Source of the DNA: an uncultured PS1 clade bacterium
Lineage (GTDB): Bacteria > Pseudomonadota > Alphaproteobacteria > MED-G09
Length of the DNA stretch: 45,074 bases
Assembly (NCBI GenBank): GCA_902609025.1
Contig: CACLQD010000005.1
Coordinates: forward strand, 1-45,074
Direction: 5' to 3'
This document shows positions 4,293-25,317 of this stretch, piece after piece (the stretch's first letter is position 1; every line of letters begins with the position of its first letter). A program made the position numbers and the translations under genes. The notes under the pieces were generated by a model that was given only the letters and a program-made list of their open reading frames with translations, did no database searches and was not told the origin of the DNA.

Positions 4293-5528
4293 ATGTCCAC
4301 TGAAACATTGAAACAAAAATTTTATGGTTGGCGAATGATTGCAGGTGCAAATCTTGTTGATTTCTTCTCAGCAGGCCTTGCTTTTTATGCTTATGCCGTA
4401 TTTTTTGGTTTTATTCAGGAAGAATTTTCAGCAAGTAGATTTCTAGTTTCTTTAACGGTATCTATAACTATTTTAGCAGCTGGCATTTATTCTCCACTTT
4501 TAGGTTATATCCTTGATAAGTTTCCAATAAAGAAAGTTTTAACTATTGGAGCATTGATATTCGGACTGGGTTTTATTTTGCTCTCAATTACACAAACATT
4601 TTTTCAATTTTTACTCGTATATGGCGTTGTGATTGCATTAGGTATGGTTATCTTTGGTAACCTTAGCACTTCAAAATTGATTGCAAATTGGTTTAATGAA
4701 AAGATTGGTACTGCGTTAGGATATGCATCAATTGGATTATCATTCTCTGGAGTAATTATTCCTCCAATTGCTGTTTTTTTAATCTCAAACTTTACATGGC
4801 GGGGCGCTTATCTTGTTTTTGGTTCATTTGTCCTAATTGTATGTTCTATCTCTGCATATAAATTTTTTATTGATAAACCAGAAGATATAGGACAGTTTCC
4901 TGATGGCGTAGAGGGAGATTTGTTAGCAGATAAAATTTCTAGTGCCAATGTTTTGTCTTTTAAGGATATTCTTTCAAACAGTATTTTCTGGATTTTAACA
5001 ATAATTTTTACTCTTCAATTGAGTGCAAATCTTGGTGTTTATACTCATATACCTATTTTTTCACAAGATCTGGGTTATAGTCCTTTGCAGGCATCTTGGA
5101 TCTATTCTGTGGCAGCTTTTCATGCAGCTATGGGTAAAATAGTTTTTGGAAGATTGTTAGATAATTTAGGTGCAAGAAGAACAATATTAATATCTCTATT
5201 TTTCCATGGTCTTGGGATCGGTATTTTAATTTTTGCTACAAATTTAATTATGCTTTTACTGGCCGTAATGGTAATGGGCTTAGGCCTAGGTGGTACCATC
5301 CCACTTATGAACTCAACTTTTGCTATAGCCTTTGGTAATGCTAACTTTGGCAAGGCTAGAGGTTTAGTAGGGCCATTTATGGTACCAATGCAAATAACGG
5401 CTGCACCATTATCAGGTTGGTTATACGATACCTACGGTAATTATTCTTTGGCTTTTTCTATAAATGTGGTTCTATGTGTTATTGCAGGAATTGTAGTATT
5501 ATTTCTACATCTTCCTGATAGGAAATAA
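4293..5528 (+). CDS. MFS transporter, monocarboxylate/oxalate-formate-like
   Basis: Major facilitator of 411 residues with about twelve transmembrane helices. The N-terminal FYGWRMIAGANLVDFF start, the LLGYILDKFPIKKVL loop between helices 2 and 3, and the matching GRLLDNLGARR loop in the second half resemble the monocarboxylate-porter/OFA branch, which moves short organic acids. It is the first gene of a plus-strand run with an SDR (5561), a DUF6324-like protein, a GPH carrier, a Rieske oxygenase and an alpha/beta hydrolase. It probably imports a substrate or exports a product of that set. The substrate cannot be read from sequence. No strong Shine-Dalgarno precedes the ATG. Confidence 0.85.
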   Translation: MSTETLKQKFYGWRMIAGANLVDFFSAGLAFYAYAVFFGFIQEEFSASRFLVSLTVSITILAAGIYSPLLGYILDKFPIKKVLTIGALIFGLGFILLSITQTFFQFLLVYGVVIALGMVIFGNLSTSKLIANWFNEKIGTALGYASIGLSFSGVIIPPIAVFLISNFTWRGAYLVFGSFVLIVCSISAYKFFIDKPEDIGQFPDGVEGDLLADKISSANVLSFKDILSNSIFWILTIIFTLQLSANLGVYTHIPIFSQDLGYSPLQASWIYSVAAFHAAMGKIVFGRLLDNLGARRTILISLFFHGLGIGILIFATNLIMLLLAVMVMGLGLGGTIPLMNSTFAIAFGNANFGKARGLVGPFMVPMQITAAPLSGWLYDTYGNYSLAFSINVVLCVIAGIVVLFLHLPDRK

Positions 5529-5560
5529 TTTTAATTTTTGATTAATTATAGGGGAATAGA

Positions 5561-6370
5561 ATGTCTGGAAAATTAAATGGTAAAGTTTCACTAATCTTAG
5601 GTGCGGCTGGAAAAGATAATATGGGTCAGGTAATGGCTAGAAGGTTTGCTCAAGAAGGCGCTAAGATTGTTGTAGCTGGTAGAAAAGAAGATTCATTAAA
5701 TGAAATATCAAGCGAATTAGGCGGAGATTATGCTATTTGCGACATAACAAAAAAAGAAGATATTGATGCCATGATTTCCAAAGTTATCGATCTTCATGGA
5801 AAACTTGATATAGGAATTCAAGCCACTGGCTGGGGGTATTTATCACCCTTTTTAGAAAGCACAGAAGAAGATTTAGTAAAAATTATGAATCTTCAATTTA
5901 AAGGTCCTTATCAATTCTTTCAATCATGTATCCCAGCAATGAAAGATGGAGGTAGTATTATTCAAATTTCTTCTGCCACAGCAACCATTATGCTTGATAA
6001 TCATGCTGCATATATGGGAACGAAAGCTGGAATCGATCATGTTATAAGAACCATTGCAAATGAGTTTGGTGAAAAAGGTATTAGAGCAAACTCCATTTCA
6101 CCAGGTTTAACAGCAACACCAATGACATCCGATGCTATGGCGGCTCCTGGCCTTGAAGATGCATTTAAAAAAGAGTATCCGCTTGGAAGAATTGGAACAT
6201 CTGAAGATGTTGCTGCGGCTGCAGTCTTTTTGTGCAGTGATGAGTGTTTTTTATCTGGTCAAAATCTTCAAGTTAATGGCGGTTTAACTCTAAGAAGAAA
6301 CCCTAGGAGCCATGAAATAGATGTTTCAGTGGCCGCTGCGGTAGCAAAATTAGAGGATAATAAAAATTAA
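5561..6370 (+). CDS. short-chain dehydrogenase/reductase (SDR) family protein
   Basis: NAD(P)-dependent oxidoreductase of 269 residues with a Rossmann fold. The catalytic Tyr151 and Lys155 lie in YMGTK, with the serine in QISSATA about 13 residues before the tyrosine. The NSISPGLTATPM segment and the FLSGQNLQVNGG C-terminal block are typical of classical SDRs. The nucleotide-binding loop is unusual: GAAGKDNMGQ in place of TGxxxGxG, with extra residues between the glycines, somewhat like divergent enoyl reductase-type SDRs. An AGGGGAATAG Shine-Dalgarno precedes the ATG. The next gene starts 8 bases after the stop. The substrate is unknown; context suggests an alcohol or keto intermediate in the catabolic run. 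Confidence 0.9.
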   Translation: MSGKLNGKVSLILGAAGKDNMGQVMARRFAQEGAKIVVAGRKEDSLNEISSELGGDYAICDITKKEDIDAMISKVIDLHGKLDIGIQATGWGYLSPFLESTEEDLVKIMNLQFKGPYQFFQSCIPAMKDGGSIIQISSATATIMLDNHAAYMGTKAGIDHVIRTIANEFGEKGIRANSISPGLTATPMTSDAMAAPGLEDAFKKEYPLGRIGTSEDVAAAAVFLCSDECFLSGQNLQVNGGLTLRRNPRSHEIDVSVAAAVAKLEDNKN

Positions 6371-6378
6371 GGTTTGAT

Positions 6379-6573
6379 ATGAAAAATTCTGGAATTAATA
6401 AAGAAAGTGATATTGTTGCAGATATACAAATTGGTCCAACTAATAAAGGTATGGTTAGAATATTTGTATCTTCAGATAAGATCGAGATTCCAATGGATTT
6501 TTCTCCAGAGGAAGCAATTAATATTGCAGAGGAATTAAAAGTATCTGCAGAAACAGCAAAAAAGAACAATTAA
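6379..6573 (+). CDS. small acidic protein, DUF6324-like
   Basis: A 64-residue soluble protein. The core DIVADIQIGPTNKGMVRIFV, then IEIPMDFSPEEAINIAEEL, matches my memory of DUF6324, a small family of unknown function found mainly in alphaproteobacteria. The predicted shape is two or three strands followed by an acidic C-terminal helix; there are no cysteines and no signal peptide. It begins 8 bases after the SDR stop, with AAGG upstream of the ATG, and ends 16 bases before the GPH carrier. It is therefore part of the same transcript. Its place inside a catabolic operon may be accidental or may point to a role in regulating or assembling the neighbouring enzymes; nothing in the sequence decides this. 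Confidence 0.75.
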   Translation: MKNSGINKESDIVADIQIGPTNKGMVRIFVSSDKIEIPMDFSPEEAINIAEELKVSAETAKKNN

Positions 6574-6589
6574 AAATTAAGAAAGCGTA

Positions 6590-7996
6590 ATGCAAAGTAA
6601 CAAAAATTTTATGTTATATGGATTAGGATCTGTTGCTTTTGGCATCAAGAATAACGCCTTTGGATGGTTCCTTTTATTTTATTATAATATTGTTCTCGGT
6701 TTACCTGGGTGGATGGCATCTTTAGCCATTGCTATTGCGCTTATAATAGATGCTGTTTCTGATTTGTTAATAGGTTATGCATCAGATCATACGCGTTCAA
6801 AATTCGGAAGAAGGCATCCTTATATGTACGCAGCTCTTCTTCCTGTACCTTTAAGTTTTTATTTGTTATGGAATCCACCTTCTTTTTCTGAAGATATAAA
6901 TTTATTTATATATCTCCTAGTAATGACTATTTTTGTGAGAACAAGCACAACCCTTTTTGAGATTCCAAATCAAAGTTTAGGGCCTGAGATAACCAGGGGA
7001 TATGATGAAAGGACAAAATTAATGTCTATTCGTTACTTCTTTGGTTGGATGGGCGGTAACGCAATGTCCTTACTCAATTACTTTGTATTTCTTACACCAA
7101 CAATTGCCTATCCCGATGGACAATTAAACCCTGCCGGCCATCAAATGTATGGTGTTGTAGGGGCTTGGTTAATATTTGGCTCAATGCTTTTATCTTCAAC
7201 AGGCTTACATAAGATTATTCCAGATTTAGAAGAGCCAGTTAAGAACGAAAATTTTGATGATATAAAAAAAGAATTGCGACATACATTATTGAATACCTCT
7301 TTTGTAGTTCTTTTTGTAGGTGGAATTTTTTCAGGTATGGCTGCAGGATTTTCAGCAGCATTAAATATATATTTTAATACTTATTTTTGGGGTTTTTCAT
7401 CTACACAAATAGGTATTGCTGGTGTTGTCGGAGTTATCCCAGGTATTTTAGGAGCAGTTGCATTATCAACATACTTATCAAAAAGAATTGGTAAGAGAAG
7501 GGGCGCAATTTACTCTTCTCTTATAGCAATATTTTTTTCTCCCTTTCCTTATTTATTGAGAATTTATGGTTATATGCCTGAATTTGGTTCTTACGATTTG
7601 CTTTGGATCATGTGCGGTTATTTTTTTCTTGAGGTTATGACAGCAGTAGCATCAACAATATTAGTATCGTCCATGATAGCTGATATTGTAGAAGATTCTG
7701 AGTTAGCAACTAAAAGAAGATCAGAAGGTCTATTTTTTGCTACAGTAGGTTTTTCTGGAAAAGCAATATCAGGTGTTGGTATATTTTTAGCAGGGTTAGT
7801 AACTTCAATTGCAGGCTTACCCGAGGGCGCTAAGCCAAGCGAAGTAGATGACAATATATTAATAAATGTTGTCTTTCTTTTTTTACCTATCTATATTTTA
7901 TTTTATTTAATATCCGTGTACTTTTTTAGTCTTTATAAAATTAATCGCGATAAGCATGAATCTAATTTGGAAGCGATTAAACAAAGAAATAACTAA
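6590..7996 (+). CDS. MFS_2/GPH-type sugar-or-organic-solute:cation symporter
   Basis: A 468-residue transporter with about twelve helices. The region DAVSDLLIGYASD then SKFGRRHPYMY is the helix 2-3 signature of the glycoside-pentoside-hexuronide:cation family (MelB fold). The FEIPNQSLGPEI segment and the SSMIADIVEDSELATKRRSEG block in the second half are also typical. Members use a sodium or proton gradient to take up sugars, glycosides or related compounds, but many marine members are uncharacterised and may carry other solutes. It lies between the SDR/DUF6324-like pair and the Rieske oxygenase and probably feeds that pathway. A second, distinct GPH carrier is at 22741. Confidence 0.88.
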   Translation: MQSNKNFMLYGLGSVAFGIKNNAFGWFLLFYYNIVLGLPGWMASLAIAIALIIDAVSDLLIGYASDHTRSKFGRRHPYMYAALLPVPLSFYLLWNPPSFSEDINLFIYLLVMTIFVRTSTTLFEIPNQSLGPEITRGYDERTKLMSIRYFFGWMGGNAMSLLNYFVFLTPTIAYPDGQLNPAGHQMYGVVGAWLIFGSMLLSSTGLHKIIPDLEEPVKNENFDDIKKELRHTLLNTSFVVLFVGGIFSGMAAGFSAALNIYFNTYFWGFSSTQIGIAGVVGVIPGILGAVALSTYLSKRIGKRRGAIYSSLIAIFFSPFPYLLRIYGYMPEFGSYDLLWIMCGYFFLEVMTAVASTILVSSMIADIVEDSELATKRRSEGLFFATVGFSGKAISGVGIFLAGLVTSIAGLPEGAKPSEVDDNILINVVFLFLPIYILFYLISVYFFSLYKINRDKHESNLEAIKQRNN

Positions 7997-8012
7997 TTTT
8001 AAGTTAATTATA

Positions 8013-8040
8013 TTTACAAATTATGTAGTTTTTCTATATT
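8013..8040 (+). promoter_or_regulatory. predicted sigma-70-type promoter for the Rieske oxygenase gene, leaderless
   Basis: TTTACA at 8013-8018 and TATATT at 8035-8040 are spaced by 16 bases. The -10 box ends only 7 bases before the ATG at 8048, and no Shine-Dalgarno is present in between. Transcription would start at or within a base or two of the start codon, giving a leaderless message. This is a consensus match in AT-rich DNA, so it is a moderate call. Confidence 0.45.
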
Positions 8041-8047
8041 TACTTGC

Positions 8048-9274
8048 ATGAAAACAAAAAAAATCAATGAAGTAAGAAAACAAATTGAATATGAGTACAA
8101 ACGAAACTCATATCCAGATGGTTTTCCTAAGATTCCTGATATTTCAGGTAAAAGATATACTGATCAAGAGTTTTTTGACCTTGAATTTAAAAATATTTTC
8201 TTAAAATCTTGGCTAATGATCTTTAGAGAGGATGAGATTCCTAATCCTGGAGATTTTAAAATATTTGATAAATTGCAAAGAGATATTTTGATTGTCAGAC
8301 AGAAGGATAAAAGTATTAGGGCTTTTTACAATACATGTTCTCATAGAGGTGCTCCAGTTGTTAGAGAAAAACAGGGTTCAACAAAGTTACTTAAATGCCA
8401 ATATCATAGCTGGGCTTATGATCTTGATGGATCTTTATTAAGAGTTCCTGATGAAAGAGACTTTTTAGAATTAGATCTTTCTTGCAGAGGGTTAAAGCAA
8501 GTTCATTGTGATACATGGGATGGATGGGTTTTTATATCACTTCAAGATAATAACCCTGGTAGCCTTATGGAATTCTTAGAACCAGTAGCTTCAGAGATGG
8601 ATTGTTTTAAAAGCTCAGAATTAACAACAATTTGGAAAAATAGCACTCTTGTAAAAGCTAACTGGAAAACTTGTCTTGATGCCTTTATGGAAGTTTATCA
8701 TTCGCCAACTATTCATAAAGATACAGTTAATATTTTGCTAGATGGAAATGGTATGGCAGCCGGCTTATTAAAAAATGGTCATTCAAGAATGGTTACTCCA
8801 AAAAGAATAAATCTCGATGGAGGAATGTTAGGTGCTGAAGGACAAGATTTTGTTCCATTTATCGAAACATGCGACAGTATTCATGCTGAAACAAATGTTG
8901 CTTATGCAATGTTTCCTAATTTTATTACTCCTACAGATACTTCTGGTTATGTTGCAATACTTTTTTGGCCGAAAAGTCTTCGTGAAACTGAAATTGAATA
9001 TTTACAATTAGGCCCTAAATGGGAAGGTAAGGAGAAACCACAATATTGGATTGATCAGGAAACCTCTTTTTATTCAATAATGGAAGAAGATTTTAAAAAT
9101 TTAGAACCAATGCAAAAGTCTCATGATTCTGGGGTTTTTGAAAAAATGCCATTAAATTATCAAGAAAGAAGAATATATTACTATCATCAAACAGTGGATG
9201 ATTGGGTTGGAAGAGAAAATATCAAGAATGATCTTGTTACAAAAGATATATTGACTCCCTTCATTGAGAACTAA
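8048..9274 (+). CDS. Rieske [2Fe-2S] ring-hydroxylating oxygenase, alpha subunit
   Basis: A 408-residue catalytic subunit of a Rieske non-heme iron oxygenase. The Rieske centre is formed by Cys97-x-His99 (CSHRGAP) and Cys117-x2-His120 (CQYHSW). The mononuclear iron site is visible as His218 and His223 in EVYHSPTIH, with Asp348 in EEDFKNLE as the likely third ligand. Asp211 or Glu215 is in the place of the bridging acid that carries electrons between the two centres. No beta subunit, ferredoxin or reductase gene lies nearby, so electrons must come from proteins encoded elsewhere, and the enzyme is probably a homo-oligomer. The alpha/beta hydrolase follows three bases later and may act on the product. 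Substrate unknown: aromatic acids and quaternary amines are both possible. Confidence 0.93.
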   Translation: MKTKKINEVRKQIEYEYKRNSYPDGFPKIPDISGKRYTDQEFFDLEFKNIFLKSWLMIFREDEIPNPGDFKIFDKLQRDILIVRQKDKSIRAFYNTCSHRGAPVVREKQGSTKLLKCQYHSWAYDLDGSLLRVPDERDFLELDLSCRGLKQVHCDTWDGWVFISLQDNNPGSLMEFLEPVASEMDCFKSSELTTIWKNSTLVKANWKTCLDAFMEVYHSPTIHKDTVNILLDGNGMAAGLLKNGHSRMVTPKRINLDGGMLGAEGQDFVPFIETCDSIHAETNVAYAMFPNFITPTDTSGYVAILFWPKSLRETEIEYLQLGPKWEGKEKPQYWIDQETSFYSIMEEDFKNLEPMQKSHDSGVFEKMPLNYQERRIYYYHQTVDDWVGRENIKNDLVTKDILTPFIEN

Positions 9275-9277
9275 TTA

Positions 9278-10078
9278 TTGCCTTTTATAAATACTAAAAA
9301 TATAAAAATTTACTATGAGTCTGCTGGCCAAGGTGACGCAGTTCTATACATTTCAGGAACAGGTGGAGACTTAAGGAAATCACCGAGTGTTTTTGATAAT
9401 GATTTAAAGAATAACTTTCATTTAATTTCTTATGACCAAAGAGGTCTTGGACAAAGTGAAATTCCAGTAGGTCCATATAGTATGAAAGATTATGCTGATG
9501 ATGCATTTAACTTTATAGAAAAACTTAATCTTAAAAGAGTTTATGTAATTGGTGTAAGTTTTGGAGGAATGGTAGCCCAACATTTGGCAATTAATTATCC
9601 TGGCATAGTCGAAAGACTAGTATTGATGTGTACTTCTCCTGGAGGAGAAAAATATCATTCTTTTCCTTTACATGAGTTAGAGGAAATTATCGATGATCAA
9701 GAATATGTAAGAAAGTTTATCTCTATTTCAGATTTGAGAATTAATACAGATTATATAAATAATAATTCCAAGCAATATACAATTTTATCTGACCAGATAA
9801 AAAATTATCTAAGAAGTCCAGAATCAAAAGAAAATAAGGGTAAGTTTTTACAACTTGGAGCCAGAAAAGATCATAATGTTATAGATTTCCTAAATAATAT
9901 CAAATGCCCAACTTTAATTATGGGTGGTCTGTATGACGGTATTGCGCCAAAAGATAATATTGATATTTTAGACGAGCAAATTCCAAATTCAGTCAAAAAA
10001 TTTTATGAGGGTGGGCATGGTTTCTTTTTAGAGGATTATCAGGCTTGGAAGGACGTAATAAGTTTTCTTAAAGATTAG
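9278..10078 (+). CDS. alpha/beta hydrolase (enol-lactonase / RutD-like)
   Basis: A 266-residue soluble hydrolase. The nucleophile elbow is GVSFGGM with Ser94, the acid is probably the aspartate in GLYDGIAP, and the base is the histidine in GGHGFFLED. It starts with TTG three bases after the Rieske gene stop; this start is chosen because MPFINTKNIKIYYESAG is the normal N terminus of the family and no ATG lies nearby. The family includes 3-oxoadipate enol-lactonases and ester or C-C bond hydrolases, so a job after the ring-opening or hydroxylation step of the neighbouring oxygenase is reasonable. The stop overlaps the stop of the convergent DUF4345 gene by four bases (TTAG). Confidence 0.9.
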   Translation: MPFINTKNIKIYYESAGQGDAVLYISGTGGDLRKSPSVFDNDLKNNFHLISYDQRGLGQSEIPVGPYSMKDYADDAFNFIEKLNLKRVYVIGVSFGGMVAQHLAINYPGIVERLVLMCTSPGGEKYHSFPLHELEEIIDDQEYVRKFISISDLRINTDYINNNSKQYTILSDQIKNYLRSPESKENKGKFLQLGARKDHNVIDFLNNIKCPTLIMGGLYDGIAPKDNIDILDEQIPNSVKKFYEGGHGFFLEDYQAWKDVISFLKD

Positions 10079-10455
10079 ATTCTTGATCTTATAAAAAGTA
10101 TCAACGCATAAGAGTACTCAATTACCGCAAATATTATTAAAGTTTGATCTAAACCGTCCAAATAAAGGCTTATTGATCTTCCAATGGCTAATCCTAACAT
10201 TAGTAAGGCGAAAGCTGAAAACCAACTTTTCTTACCTAATGAGTTATGCGTAGCATAGATTATCCCGAGTCCAAGTGTGGTAAGAAGACCTCCAAACGAG
10301 CGGATATCGCTCATACCAAATTGACCGGTTATTTGAACATGTAGAGCTGCCCATGCGCTTTCTGTAAATAATTCTGGATCAATTATTCCCAGTACACCAA
10401 AAACTAACCAGGATAAGCCGATTAAATAAGTAAGGACATTTATTATTAAAACCAT
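10075..10455 (-). CDS. DUF4345-like small membrane protein
   Basis: A 126-residue protein with four predicted transmembrane helices and short loops. The pattern of a first helix followed by GIIDPELF, then SDIRSFGGLLTTLGLGI, then RSISLYLDG is the layout I associate with DUF4345, a family of unknown function in proteobacteria and actinobacteria. It lies 37 bases after the oxidase gene at 10493 on the same strand and may be the last gene of the metF–metH transcript. The spacer contains only a weak 5-bp stem (CTTTA…TAAAG). Function unknown. Confidence 0.7.
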   Translation of the reverse strand: MVLIINVLTYLIGLSWLVFGVLGIIDPELFTESAWAALHVQITGQFGMSDIRSFGGLLTTLGLGIIYATHNSLGKKSWFSAFALLMLGLAIGRSISLYLDGLDQTLIIFAVIEYSYALILFIRSRI

Positions 10456-10492: not shown

Positions 10493-11647
10493 TTATCTAA
10501 ATCTTAAGTTATCTTTATTTAAATCTTCAAGAGAATTACATCCCATGAGTTTCATATTACGAATAATTTCTTCTTGCATAAGTTGAAAAGCTCTAAAAGT
10601 CCCTTTATAGCCCCCAGCTGCAAGTGCATATAAGTAGTACCGTCCACCTGAACATGCTTTAGCGCCTAGGGAGAGGGCTTTTAGGACATGACTACCTCTT
10701 CTTATTCCTCCATCACAAATAACATCTATTTTATCTCCTACGGCATCAACTATTTCTGCAAGTTGATCAAAGGGAGCCCTTGATCCATCTAATTGTCTTC
10801 CGCCATGATTTGAAACCATTATTGCTGTTGCGCCAACATCAATACATTTTTTTGCATCCTCAACTGACATAATGCCCTTTAAACAAAGGTGACCGTCCCA
10901 TTGGTTTTTTATTTTTTCAATATCTTTCCAAGTAATGCTTTGATCAAGCATCGTTGAGAAATAATCCCCAACAGAAATATTAATATTAGTACCTTCACTT
11001 ACAAAATCTTGGAGCTGAGGTAATTCAAATTTTTTTCTAAATAAATAATTTAAGGTCCATTCGGGATGAAAAGCATAACTTAAGAAGCTATTAAAATCTA
11101 ATTTCGGTGGCGATGTAAAACCTGTTCGAAGATCTCTCTCTCTATTTCCACCAACAACAGTATCTAAAGTTATCGCTAATGCATCAAAATTATTCATCTT
11201 GCATTTTTCTATCATGCTATCGTTAAGGCCTTTATCTTTATGGATATACATTTGAAATATTTTTGGGCAGGAAAATTTTTTACCAACATCTTCTATGCTC
11301 GCAGTAGCTAAAGATGATATTCCAAAAAAAGTATTAAAATGTTCAGCAGCTTTTCCAACAGCAATTTCTCCTTGATGATGGAATAATCTTTGAAGAGCTG
11401 TTGGAGAGAAGAATAATGGAGTACTTATCTTTTTACCCATAAGTTCTGTACTAATATCAATATTTTCAACTCCTCTTAAAACATTTGGAACTAGATCAAC
11501 TTCTTCAAATGCTTGTGTATTTCTTTTTAAGGTAACTTCATCATCTGCTGCACCATCAATATAATGAAATACAGGAAAGGGAATCTTTCTTTTTGCAAGT
11601 TTTCTAAAATCTTCTGTATTGAAACAATATTTAATTGAATTGAGCAT
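10493..11647 (-). CDS. FMN-dependent alpha-hydroxy-acid oxidase/dehydrogenase (LldD-like)
   Basis: A 384-residue flavoenzyme that oxidises 2-hydroxy acids such as L-lactate or glycolate to 2-oxo acids. It has the family's TIM-barrel order: an N-terminal DFRKLAKRKIPFPVFHYIDG, then SPTALQRLFH, then the ALAITLDT-like strand, and the active-site SNHGGRQLDG with the catalytic base His281. VICDGGIRRG contributes FMN phosphate binding. The middle contains a loop (about residues 180-230) that could meet the membrane, as in LldD. The start codon overlaps the stop of the M48 lipoprotein gene by one base (TAATG), so the genes are translationally coupled. The exact substrate (lactate, glycolate, mandelate-like) is not decided by what is visible. 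Confidence 0.9.
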   Translation of the reverse strand: MLNSIKYCFNTEDFRKLAKRKIPFPVFHYIDGAADDEVTLKRNTQAFEEVDLVPNVLRGVENIDISTELMGKKISTPLFFSPTALQRLFHHQGEIAVGKAAEHFNTFFGISSLATASIEDVGKKFSCPKIFQMYIHKDKGLNDSMIEKCKMNNFDALAITLDTVVGGNRERDLRTGFTSPPKLDFNSFLSYAFHPEWTLNYLFRKKFELPQLQDFVSEGTNINISVGDYFSTMLDQSITWKDIEKIKNQWDGHLCLKGIMSVEDAKKCIDVGATAIMVSNHGGRQLDGSRAPFDQLAEIVDAVGDKIDVICDGGIRRGSHVLKALSLGAKACSGGRYYLYALAAGGYKGTFRAFQLMQEEIIRNMKLMGCNSLEDLNKDNLRFR

Positions 11648-22740: not shown

Positions 22741-24078
22741 ATGATAAATAAACTTACTAAACCAATACTTATTTCTTATGGAGCTTTAGCTGTCCCTCTT
22801 GCTGCTTTAGGTTTGCCACTTACAGTCTATCTTCCTCCATTTTATGAAGGACCGATTGGTTTGAGTGTTGGCACAGTTGGTATTATTTTTATGGTTGCTC
22901 GATTTTGGGATATTTTTACAGATCCTTTAATGGGGGCCTTAGTTGATAGATATCCCAGTAAATGGGGTAGGAGAAAGCATTGGATAGTTATTGGTATACC
23001 AATTTTAATGTTGGCTTCTTGGTATGTGTTTATCCCGTCTGAAGGTGAAAAAACTGCTATTTATTTAGCTTTTTGGTTATTTATTTTATATTTAGCATAT
23101 ACTTTTGTTGGCCTTACGCAACAAGCCTGGGGAGTAGACTTAACCTCAAAATATAATGAAAGATCACAGGTTTATGGCTGGAGAGAGATAGGCTCTATTT
23201 TTGGAATGATGGCTGTATTAGCTTTTCCAGCTATTCTAGAAATATTAGATTATGATTTTAGGACAATGATTGCTGGGATGGGTTATTTTCTCTTAGTTGC
23301 CTTTCCCCTAACCGCTCTAATAAGTCTTGTTATTATTCCTGACAATAAAGGTTCTAAAGGAACTTATTTTCCAAAAATTTTTGATATAAAAAAAATTATA
23401 AAAAATAATAACCCATTAAAAAGAGTTCTAATGGCAGAAATGCTATGTAGCACTGCTTCATCAATATCTGGTTCTACATTTATTTATCTTGCAATACATG
23501 TTTTTGAAATGGGAGATATTTCAAGTAGAATTTTATTTGTTTATTTCTTTGCTGGTTTATTAGCTATGCCGCTATGGATGTTTCTTTCATATAAAATTGG
23601 TAAACATAGAGTTTTATTTATTTCCGCCTTATTATGTTCAGTAATCTTATCCACATATATTCCTCTTTATTACCTAATTGATATATCCGAAGCTTTTTGG
23701 TTAGTTTTATTTTTAACGACATTATTTGGAGTTGGCTATGGTGCACCATTTACACTGACTAGAGCAATGATGGCTGATATTGTTGATGCAGATGAGCTTA
23801 GAAGTGGTGAAAAAAGACCTGCATTATTTTTTGCAGTTTTAACAACATTATCAAAATTTGGGAGTGCTTTAGCAGTTGGTATGGTTTATCTTTATCTTGA
23901 ATCAACAGGCTTTGGCTCTGGAAAAGAAGTTACAGAGTCTATTAGAGCGTCTTTAGTATTTGCTTTTGCGTTTTTTCCAATGTTATTTTATTTTTTAGCT
24001 TCATTGATTTGTATAGGTTACGAATTAACACCTGAGAAACATAAAGATATTCAATTAGAGCTAGAAAAAAGAAACTAA
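22741..24078 (+). CDS. MFS_2/GPH-type cation symporter
   Basis: A 445-residue carrier with about twelve helices. FWDIFTDPLMGALVDRYPSK then WGRRKHWIVIG is the GPH signature between helices 2 and 3. TQQAWGVDLTSKYNERSQVYGWRE and the later MMADIVDADELRSGEKRPALFFA are the matching conserved blocks. It is related to, but clearly different from, the carrier at 6590. It precedes a CaiB/BaiF CoA-transferase and an HSL-type hydrolase on the same strand, so it probably imports a compound that is then activated with CoA or hydrolysed. The substrate is not known. Confidence 0.87.
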   Translation: MINKLTKPILISYGALAVPLAALGLPLTVYLPPFYEGPIGLSVGTVGIIFMVARFWDIFTDPLMGALVDRYPSKWGRRKHWIVIGIPILMLASWYVFIPSEGEKTAIYLAFWLFILYLAYTFVGLTQQAWGVDLTSKYNERSQVYGWREIGSIFGMMAVLAFPAILEILDYDFRTMIAGMGYFLLVAFPLTALISLVIIPDNKGSKGTYFPKIFDIKKIIKNNNPLKRVLMAEMLCSTASSISGSTFIYLAIHVFEMGDISSRILFVYFFAGLLAMPLWMFLSYKIGKHRVLFISALLCSVILSTYIPLYYLIDISEAFWLVLFLTTLFGVGYGAPFTLTRAMMADIVDADELRSGEKRPALFFAVLTTLSKFGSALAVGMVYLYLESTGFGSGKEVTESIRASLVFAFAFFPMLFYFLASLICIGYELTPEKHKDIQLELEKRN

Positions 24079-24126: not shown

Positions 24127-25317
24127 ATGGGACCATTAGAAGGAATAAAAATAATAGATATATCAACAATTGTTTCAGGCCCTTTAGCAGCTTCGATGCT
24201 TGGTGATCAGGGCGCTGAGGTTATTAAAATTGAACCTCCATTTAGAGGAGAAAATGCAAGAGTAATGGGTCCTATAAAAGAAGGAAGCGGTGCTTTATTT
24301 GCAGCAGTTAATAGATCAAAAAGAAGTTTAGCTATGGATTTAAAACAAGAAGAGTCAAAAAAAATAATCTACAAATTAATTGAAACTGCCGATGTTATTA
24401 TTGATAATTTTCGTCCCGGAGCATTAGAGAGGTTAGGATTGGATTATGATAATATAAAAAAACATAACCCAAAAATCATTCAAATGTCCATTACAGGATA
24501 TGGAGAAACTGGACCTTATTCAAAAAGAAGAGTTTATGACCCACTTATTCAGGCCACTGCCGGAGTTTGTGATGCTCAATCAATTGAAGGCCAACCTAAA
24601 TACATGAAAACGCTTATGTGCGATAAGATAACTTCACTTACTGCAGCTCAAGCTATGACAGCGGCATTATACAAAAGAGAGAAAACGAATAAGGGGCAAA
24701 GAGTAACGTTATCCATGCTCGATACGGCTCTTTATTTTATGTGGTCTGATTCTATGTATAATTATTCTTGGCATGGTGATGATTGGGCCCCAATGCCTAA
24801 TATTGCTGATTTTTACGAACCAGTTAAAACAAAAGATGGCTTCATTGCTTTAGTGGCTATTAATGATAGTGAATTTGCAGGTGTGCTAAAGGCAATTGGA
24901 AAAGAAGATCTTCTAGAGGATGAGAGATTTTCAACGACAGAGAATAGGATGATGAACGTTATGGAAATGCAAGAAATCTTGCTAAATGCTTATTTAGACT
25001 TTACTTCAGATGAGCTCGTTAAGAAGATGGAAGAAAATGATGTTCCTGCGGCTAAAATTAATAAAAGAGAAGAAATATTTTCAGATCCACAAGTTATAAA
25101 TAATCAAACTGTAATTAACACAAAGAAGGATGGTGAAGATCTTTTAAAAGGACCAAAACCACCTGCTAACTTTCTTGACAATCATTGCGAGGAACCAAAG
25201 TTTATGCCAGCGCTTGGTCAGCACTCATCTGAGATTCTTCAGGAATATGGATTTTCTAATGAGGAAATTAATAAGTTAATTGATAGTCAAATTGTTCAAG
25301 GGGATAAAGTTGGTTAG
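24127..25317 (+). CDS. CaiB/BaiF family CoA-transferase
   Basis: Family III CoA-transferase of 396 residues that moves CoA between carboxylic acids. The N-terminal GPLEGIKIIDIS start, GPLAASMLGDQGAEVIKIEPP and DNFRPGALERLGL are typical. The catalytic aspartate is in RRVYDPLIQATAG. A GGGAGG ribosome-binding site precedes the ATG. The gene overlaps the downstream hydrolase. Related enzymes act on formyl-, carnitinyl-, bile-acid-, succinyl- or mesaconyl-CoA, and the sequence does not tell which. A second, divergent family member is at 36670. Confidence 0.92.
   Translation: MGPLEGIKIIDISTIVSGPLAASMLGDQGAEVIKIEPPFRGENARVMGPIKEGSGALFAAVNRSKRSLAMDLKQEESKKIIYKLIETADVIIDNFRPGALERLGLDYDNIKKHNPKIIQMSITGYGETGPYSKRRVYDPLIQATAGVCDAQSIEGQPKYMKTLMCDKITSLTAAQAMTAALYKREKTNKGQRVTLSMLDTALYFMWSDSMYNYSWHGDDWAPMPNIADFYEPVKTKDGFIALVAINDSEFAGVLKAIGKEDLLEDERFSTTENRMMNVMEMQEILLNAYLDFTSDELVKKMEENDVPAAKINKREEIFSDPQVINNQTVINTKKDGEDLLKGPKPPANFLDNHCEEPKFMPALGQHSSEILQEYGFSNEEINKLIDSQIVQGDKVG

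Follow-up and report, generated by a model that had tools for sequence, protein, structure and literature searches.

A possible import-and-oxidation operon with an exchangeable downstream module in PS1-clade Alphaproteobacteria

Described Rieske systems and the PS1-clade locus

Sphingobium yanoikuyae B1 carries many terminal Rieske oxygenases without local partners, and several of them share one donor of reductase and ferredoxin (excerpts of PMC1847435), while SAR202 represents a lineage of marine plankton with expansions of ring-hydroxylating dioxygenases, in which Rieske alpha subunits are numerous and beta subunits few (excerpts of PMC6946804). Among the group V Rieske oxygenases, CntA possesses a bridging Glu205, Tyr203, and a Cys206/Cys209 pair (excerpts of PMC7948474 and PMC10952381); OxyBAC carries a Phe two residues ahead of the bridging Glu (excerpts of PMC7948474), and a Cys-x-x-Cys motif adjoining the iron site is present in some group V members (excerpts of PMC10952381). 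The present analysis concerns a six-gene cassette with a Rieske oxygenase at positions 4293-10078 of the window, i.e., the whole 45,074-nucleotide stretch of contig CACLQD010000005.1 from an uncultured PS1-clade bacterium. We give even odds to the proposal of an import-and-oxidise operon at this locus in PS1-clade bacteria, with an exchangeable downstream module and a Rieske oxygenase fed by a genome-wide electron-transfer chain.

The PS1 genome resembles that of S. yanoikuyae B1 in its many terminal Rieske oxygenases without local partners and in the apparent sharing of reductase and ferredoxin; however, it differs in size (about 0.9-1.4 Mb), in its Fer2 putidaredoxin-like ferredoxin, and in the bridging Glu of 12 of its 13 alpha subunits. 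The resemblance to SAR202 lies in the setting of marine plankton and in many alpha subunits with apparently few beta subunits, although SAR202 belongs to the Chloroflexi. CntA and Stc2 appear, from the predicted model, to be the nearest solved structures, with an alpha3-type fold and a bridging Glu, but they share only about 20-24% identity with the PS1 protein, which lacks the Cys-x-x-Cys motif and is not accompanied by a CntB-type reductase in its genome. The reductase of the genome matches the AndAa/HcaD ferredoxin-NAD+ reductases over nearly the full length, yet scores below their equivalog cut-offs and does not lie beside an oxygenase. No report of a Rieske expansion in the PS1 clade was found in the literature searched.

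The host is a PS1/OCS116 alphaproteobacterium; its closest records are OCS116/PS1-clade single-cell genomes and Rhodobiaceae metagenome-assembled genomes, and the window Rieske protein is 99% identical to that of AG-435-F03. Its genome (G000; relatives are numbered G001-G008 and onward, and loci carry an L number) spans 911,495 bases on 38 contigs and is 67.7% complete. The family set comprises 18 genomes from the genus of the window (g1) and two other genera, g3 (G008) and g2, the last with 10 genomes, and 12 family genomes were covered by the searches for redox domains.

Gene order and the exchanged slot

The cassette consists of six open reading frames, all on the plus strand and separated by 32, 8, 16, 51, and 3 bases in order. 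The first encodes an MFS_1 carrier of 411 amino acids (4293-5528; Pfam MFS_1, 4.8e-53), followed by an SDR dehydrogenase of 269 amino acids (5561-6370; Pfam adh_short_C2, 7.8e-61) with a Y151-x3-K155 motif, a DUF6324 protein of 64 amino acids (6379-6573; Pfam DUF6324, 3.1e-28), and a GPH-type (MFS_2) carrier of 468 amino acids (6590-7996; Pfam MFS_2/GPH, 2.5e-89). The last two encode a Rieske oxygenase alpha subunit of 408 amino acids (8048-9274; Pfam Rieske, 5.8e-18, and Ring_hydroxyl_A, 1.3e-20) and an alpha/beta hydrolase of 266 amino acids (9278-10078; Pfam Abhydrolase_1, 2.1e-26), whose TTG start recurs in all six copies checked, the window included. The initial annotation had described six same-strand genes with small gaps and two different carriers; all six lie where it placed them, with gaps of 3-51 bases, the Pfam matches bear out its names, and the carriers indeed belong to the separate MFS_1 and MFS_2/GPH families.

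All six genes occur in the same order in five of the seven g1/g3 relatives (G001, G002, G003, G006, and G008, the last counted as full order though a contig end cuts its first gene); in the other two, G004 and G005, the contig ends inside the Rieske gene, and the order is consistent up to that point. Between g1 and g3, order and strand are retained at 85-86% identity of the SDR and Rieske proteins. The MFS1, SDR, DUF6324, and Rieske proteins of G008 are 68-86% identical to those of the window and its hydrolase 59%, against only 38% for the GPH carrier, which therefore looks to have been replaced in place.

In g2, the same core is followed by a different enzyme. At a threshold of E 1e-60, SDR orthologues were found in 14 of the 18 family genomes, including seven of the ten g2 genomes, where the SDR (79-83% identical to that of the window) invariably stands between MFS1 and DUF6324 (62-67%), and GPH comes next (65-67% in six loci; the seventh contig stops within it). 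MFS_1 orthologues are 68-97% identical in g1/g3 and 48-50% in g2. All six g2 loci that extend past GPH continue with a beta-lactamase-fold protein (393 amino acids in L205), for which the nearest NCBIfam model is the AcmB methyl acetate hydrolase (152.8 bits, where the cut-off is 550), and then with DUF4345, as in g1. The M3 peptidase from the left end of the window is also found near the core in five of the seven g2 loci, which marks these as the same neighbourhood. The g2 Rieske orthologue (71-74%) was read at eight other loci, none of which holds core genes, and G007 and G015, two of the ten g2 genomes, have only a 42% Rieske relative. At L030 and L031, the g2 orthologue is followed by a 316-amino-acid protein with a P-loop (TGGQGSGKT), which matched no model when one copy was compared with Pfam and both with NCBIfam, and which presumably resembles glycerate-kinase-like kinases.

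Since the order is kept in g1/g3 while the Rieske orthologue lies elsewhere in g2, the clustering is not accidental and the Rieske gene is a movable addition to the cassette. The initial annotation had taken scattering of these genes in relatives as the sign of accidental proximity, and this holds for one half only: the Rieske gene is elsewhere in g2, but the other four genes remain together. Its idea of a catabolic unit survives as a conserved set for transport, oxidation, and hydrolysis in marine alphaproteobacteria, of which the Rieske gene is not a fixed member. Its ester-linked substrate has gained some ground, because two unrelated hydrolase folds fill the same slot in sister genera and an ester or lactone step is thus favoured; the beta-lactamase-fold replacement in g2 is the best hint of such an opening reaction.

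The unit is bounded downstream by a DUF4345 membrane protein gene on the minus strand (10075-10455; Pfam), a flank conserved in g1, g2, and g3. It is followed on the same strand by an FMN alpha-hydroxyacid dehydrogenase of the L-lactate dehydrogenase type (10493-11647; NCBIfam), an M48-type peptidase, and a long open reading frame that, by eye only, reads as methionine synthase. The upstream flank holds genes for phosphatidylserine decarboxylase, a CDP-alcohol phosphatidyltransferase, and a SnoaL-like protein. Divergence within g1 is uneven: the MFS1 gene is either 76% or 97% identical, and the hydrolase-DUF4345-dehydrogenase block shows 67-85% in G003 (L025, 6439-8808) against 92-96% in the others. 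Both depart in this from the genes around them, a pattern that looks like allelic replacement by recombination.

The Rieske oxygenase and its electron supply

The Rieske protein carries the CxH...CxxH cluster and the 2-His-1-carboxylate site of a Rieske non-heme iron oxygenase alpha subunit, with cluster ligands C97/H99/C117/H120, a bridging E215, and iron ligands H218/H223/D348, all assigned by motif; the cluster motif, Glu215, His218, His223, and Asp348 are invariant in 44 of 44 aligned sequences, the window included. Its best PDB profile match is CntA (positions 21-363, E 3.4e-49), and the AF2 model (pLDDT 91.5) aligns best in VIA-align with CntA (Z 36.4, root-mean-square deviation 2.6, 338 residues aligned) and Stc2 (Z 34.7), ahead of terephthalate dioxygenase (at most 33.8) and the naphthalene/biphenyl type (about 28-31). 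The alpha3beta3 aromatic dioxygenases of the naphthalene/biphenyl type have a bridging Asp before the first His ligand; here this position is Glu215 in 44 of 44. A Pfam scan of the cassette and its neighbours found no beta subunit, a family for which the search was confined to this region. With its bridging Glu and no local beta subunit, the modelled protein fits a beta-less alpha3 enzyme; given its likeness to enzymes that work without a beta subunit, none is expected here.

The 38-row tree, in which L118_GamDLM_4369 is a long, partial branch, joins the window Rieske to the g3 and g2 orthologues (100/100), and this clade nests among 16 rows (98/98) whose sources include sphingomonads, Gammaproteobacteria, and Actinomycetota. 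The phylogeny, from which the initial annotation had hoped to learn the substrate, places the clade, but the annotated member of this set bears only a generic name, and no relative examined reveals a substrate.

Thirteen Rieske alpha subunits are encoded within this streamlined genome (0.91 Mb, 68% complete), and the one at 8048-9274 of the window is among them. In total, 14 Rieske-domain places were found, of which 13 qualify as alpha subunits on motif and length (382-478 amino acids; 12 with a bridging Glu and one with Asp), and a 178-amino-acid protein is probably the bc1 Rieske subunit. Recent duplication as the origin of the 13 proteins is not supported, as the tree forces at least eight label changes. 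Across the 12 family genomes, 13-21 Rieske domains were counted per genome, numbers that may be undercounts since the PF00355 control set gave no match in E. coli.

The initial annotation was struck by an oxygenase with no ferredoxin, reductase, or beta subunit at hand, and likewise none of the three was found by Pfam in the cassette or the genes next to it. The search that it proposed for a separate reductase was productive: exactly one Reductase_C (PF14759) reductase occurs in ten of the 12 family genomes, the two genomes without it being 83% and 62% complete, whereas an FNR-type reductase with the PF00175 NAD-binding domain occurs in none of the 12. In the genome of the window, this reductase lies on contig C1, reaches 332.7 bits against AndAa and 330.8 against HcaD, short of either cut-off, and adjoins a 106-amino-acid 2Fe-2S ferredoxin (Fer2, putidaredoxin-like); the ferredoxin lies beside the reductase in seven of the ten genomes. 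The gene content is that of a shared AndAa/HcaD-type system, with a single reductase that is unlinked to the oxygenases and accompanied by a ferredoxin. As the 13 Rieske oxygenases appear to share this one chain elsewhere in the genome, a Rieske gene with no reductase nearby is nothing unusual in this genome, and the oxygenase of the cassette probably draws its electrons from the same ferredoxin and reductase.

The core proteins, rival readings, and their meaning

In the operon that we propose, the fixed core of MFS_1, SDR, DUF6324, and GPH would import a small organic compound through one or both carriers and oxidise an alcohol group, with the SDR converting alcohol to ketone. An exchangeable opening module would follow downstream, namely the Rieske oxygenase and alpha/beta hydrolase in g1/g3 and the beta-lactamase-fold hydrolase in g2. 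The Rieske protein, as a beta-less alpha3 oxygenase, would hydroxylate the imported compound with electrons from the single AndAa/HcaD-like NADH-ferredoxin reductase and the putidaredoxin-like ferredoxin, which would be common to the other Rieske oxygenases of the cell. The hydrolase would act on an ester or lactone, or else break a C-C bond, and the neighbouring FMN hydroxyacid dehydrogenase may oxidise a released 2-hydroxyacid.

The SDR belongs to a distinctive subfamily with a GAAGxDNMGQ-type start and a LQVNGGLTLRRNP tail, and it satisfies the classical SDR pattern, with Y151/K155 and S137/S138 invariant in 13 of 13 sequences. Relatives of 49-64% identity with the motifs at both ends in common occur in sphingomonad plasmids, Gammaproteobacteria, and G056. 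All four sphingomonad plasmid loci opened (L153-L156, four of the 15 SDR matches listed) have a Rieske alpha gene no more than about 6 kb from the SDR relative, L154 and L156 being similar clusters; the Rieske gene of L154 was taken from the record annotation, and the other three were confirmed by script. The further SDR-near-Rieske loci L122, L126, L135, and L040 were found via Rieske searches and are biased accordingly. At L122, L126, and L135, all gammaproteobacterial, the SDR and Rieske relatives are accompanied by apparent genes for an acyl-CoA dehydrogenase, a CoA transferase, a thiolase, and a GST.

Of the 190 genomes of the class set, 13 encode a DUF6324 protein, ten of them outside the family. 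These ten loci adjoin alpha/beta hydrolases, PAS-domain kinases, transporters, and other genes (named by eye), and no SDR was found near any of them in flanks of about 1.5 kb on each side, shorter at contig ends. The protein, which the initial annotation had correctly placed within the cassette, is consequently rejected as a marker of the pathway, as it occurs beside unrelated genes in other alphaproteobacteria without the SDR. At L207 (G020, from another alphaproteobacterial family), at about 5932-8500, a GPH carrier 41% identical to that of the cassette lies about 0.8 kb from DUF6324, which hints weakly at an association of this protein with GPH carriers. The predicted structure is a beta-beta-alpha arrangement of low confidence (mean pLDDT 63.6), too poor for a structure search, and no mention of DUF6324 was found in the literature searched.

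The MFS_1 carrier falls in a monocarboxylate/oxalate-formate-like branch, with the SfMCT L-lactate transporter as its best NCBIfam match, below the cut-off. The GPH carrier is far above the cut-off of Pfam MFS_2 but reaches only 151.5 of the 231.35 bits of TIGR00792; a second GPH-like carrier, 24% identical to it, lies at 22741-24078 of the window, directly before a CoA-transferase family III gene (24127-25314), so that a carrier and an enzyme gene are paired there as well. The alpha/beta hydrolase has a putative catalytic triad of S94/D220/H247, judged by motif, and scores 102.8 bits against a cut-off of 255.85 for the PcaD 3-oxoadipate enol-lactonase (TIGR02427).

Several observations weigh against the proposed operon. 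The direction of the carriers is not readable from sequence, and none of the six proteins reaches a specific NCBIfam cut-off among the models listed, with MFS1, GPH, the alpha/beta hydrolase, and the SDR each under all of them. No regulator and no clear promoter or terminator marks an operon; the scan returned 22 promoter-like sites where shuffled sequence would give 30.1, and hence no excess. In G007, G009, and G010, three of the ten genomes with the reductase, no ferredoxin was found in the about 1.5 kb fetched beside it, and the genome of the window holds a second ferredoxin of the same type on contig C14. The slot exchange amounts to one difference separating two sets of genomes, and drift at a permissive site could account for it. 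Finally, the Rieske gene is unlinked from the core in g2, and therefore the SDR and the Rieske oxygenase need not share one substrate.

This last point leads to the main rival, which we regard as somewhat unlikely, namely that two units adjoin here: a conserved operon, MFS1-SDR-DUF6324-GPH, and a Rieske oxygenase with its hydrolase (and possibly the hydroxyacid dehydrogenase) that came to lie behind it by chance and act on another compound. Besides the separate location of the Rieske gene in g2, the widest gap (51 bases) separates GPH from Rieske, and the hydrolase and the hydroxyacid dehydrogenase share one distribution: the hydrolase is present in seven of the 18 family genomes, all g1/g3, and in none of the ten g2 genomes, and a dehydrogenase orthologue (at least 75%) occurs in the same genomes, g2 having only relatives of 40-42% in other places. 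This match hints at a joint function, although as weak evidence, because the sharing between g1 and g3 may be a single ancestral event. However, two independent units fit poorly with the order and strand kept across g1 and g3 at the divergence given above, with a hydrolase of another fold occupying the same slot in g2, and with the proximity of SDR relatives to other Rieske genes in both sphingomonads and Gammaproteobacteria.

A fragment of steroid- or terpenoid-type degradation is improbable. The Rieske and SDR relatives of L122/L126/L135 and L153/L154/L156 do have genes for acyl-CoA dehydrogenases, CoA transferases, thiolase, and AMP ligases as neighbours, and hydroxysteroid dehydrogenases are among the many SDRs to which the SDR shows distant similarity; yet no such genes of the beta-oxidation type lie in or directly beside the cassette, and the window Rieske falls outside the tree subgroup from those clusters.

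In clade Va of group V, the position of CntA Tyr203 is aromatic. The corresponding residue here, Phe213, two residues ahead of Glu215, is present in 44 of 44 aligned sequences and is placed as in OxyBAC (excerpts of PMC7948474), but it was rejected as diagnostic: of the 38 rows, 37 (the window among them) have a readable motif, and 36 of these carry Phe or Tyr there. A group V quaternary-ammonium operon of the CntA/GbcA kind, with carriers for a betaine-like compound, is highly improbable and the family assignment was rejected despite the bridging Glu and the best profile and fold matches to CntA/Stc2, as the Cys-x-x-Cys pair is found in none of these 37 proteins (the window has E-V-Y-H-S), the CntB-kind FNR-type reductase is lacking from all 12 family genomes, and Pfam scans of the cassette and flanks found no BCCT betaine-type carrier or ABC system.

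With the import-and-oxidise operon, an open guess becomes a testable pathway, with two questions at its centre: what the imported and oxidised compound is, and whether a lone reductase serves all Rieske oxygenases of a streamlined ocean bacterium. If it does, a genome of 1.3 Mb could afford a wide range of oxidations at little cost, with terminal oxygenases as the sole additions, as in sphingomonads. A bolder plug-in design, which we consider unlikely, would have a fixed carrier-SDR-DUF6324-carrier core, a slot refilled by unrelated opening enzymes (Rieske plus alpha/beta hydrolase, or a beta-lactamase-fold esterase), a single reductase for all Rieske oxygenases of a genome of roughly 1.3 Mb with 13-21 Rieske domains, and DUF6324 as a small helper of the GPH carrier; if it held, a streamlined cell would obtain wide access to recalcitrant dissolved organic matter.

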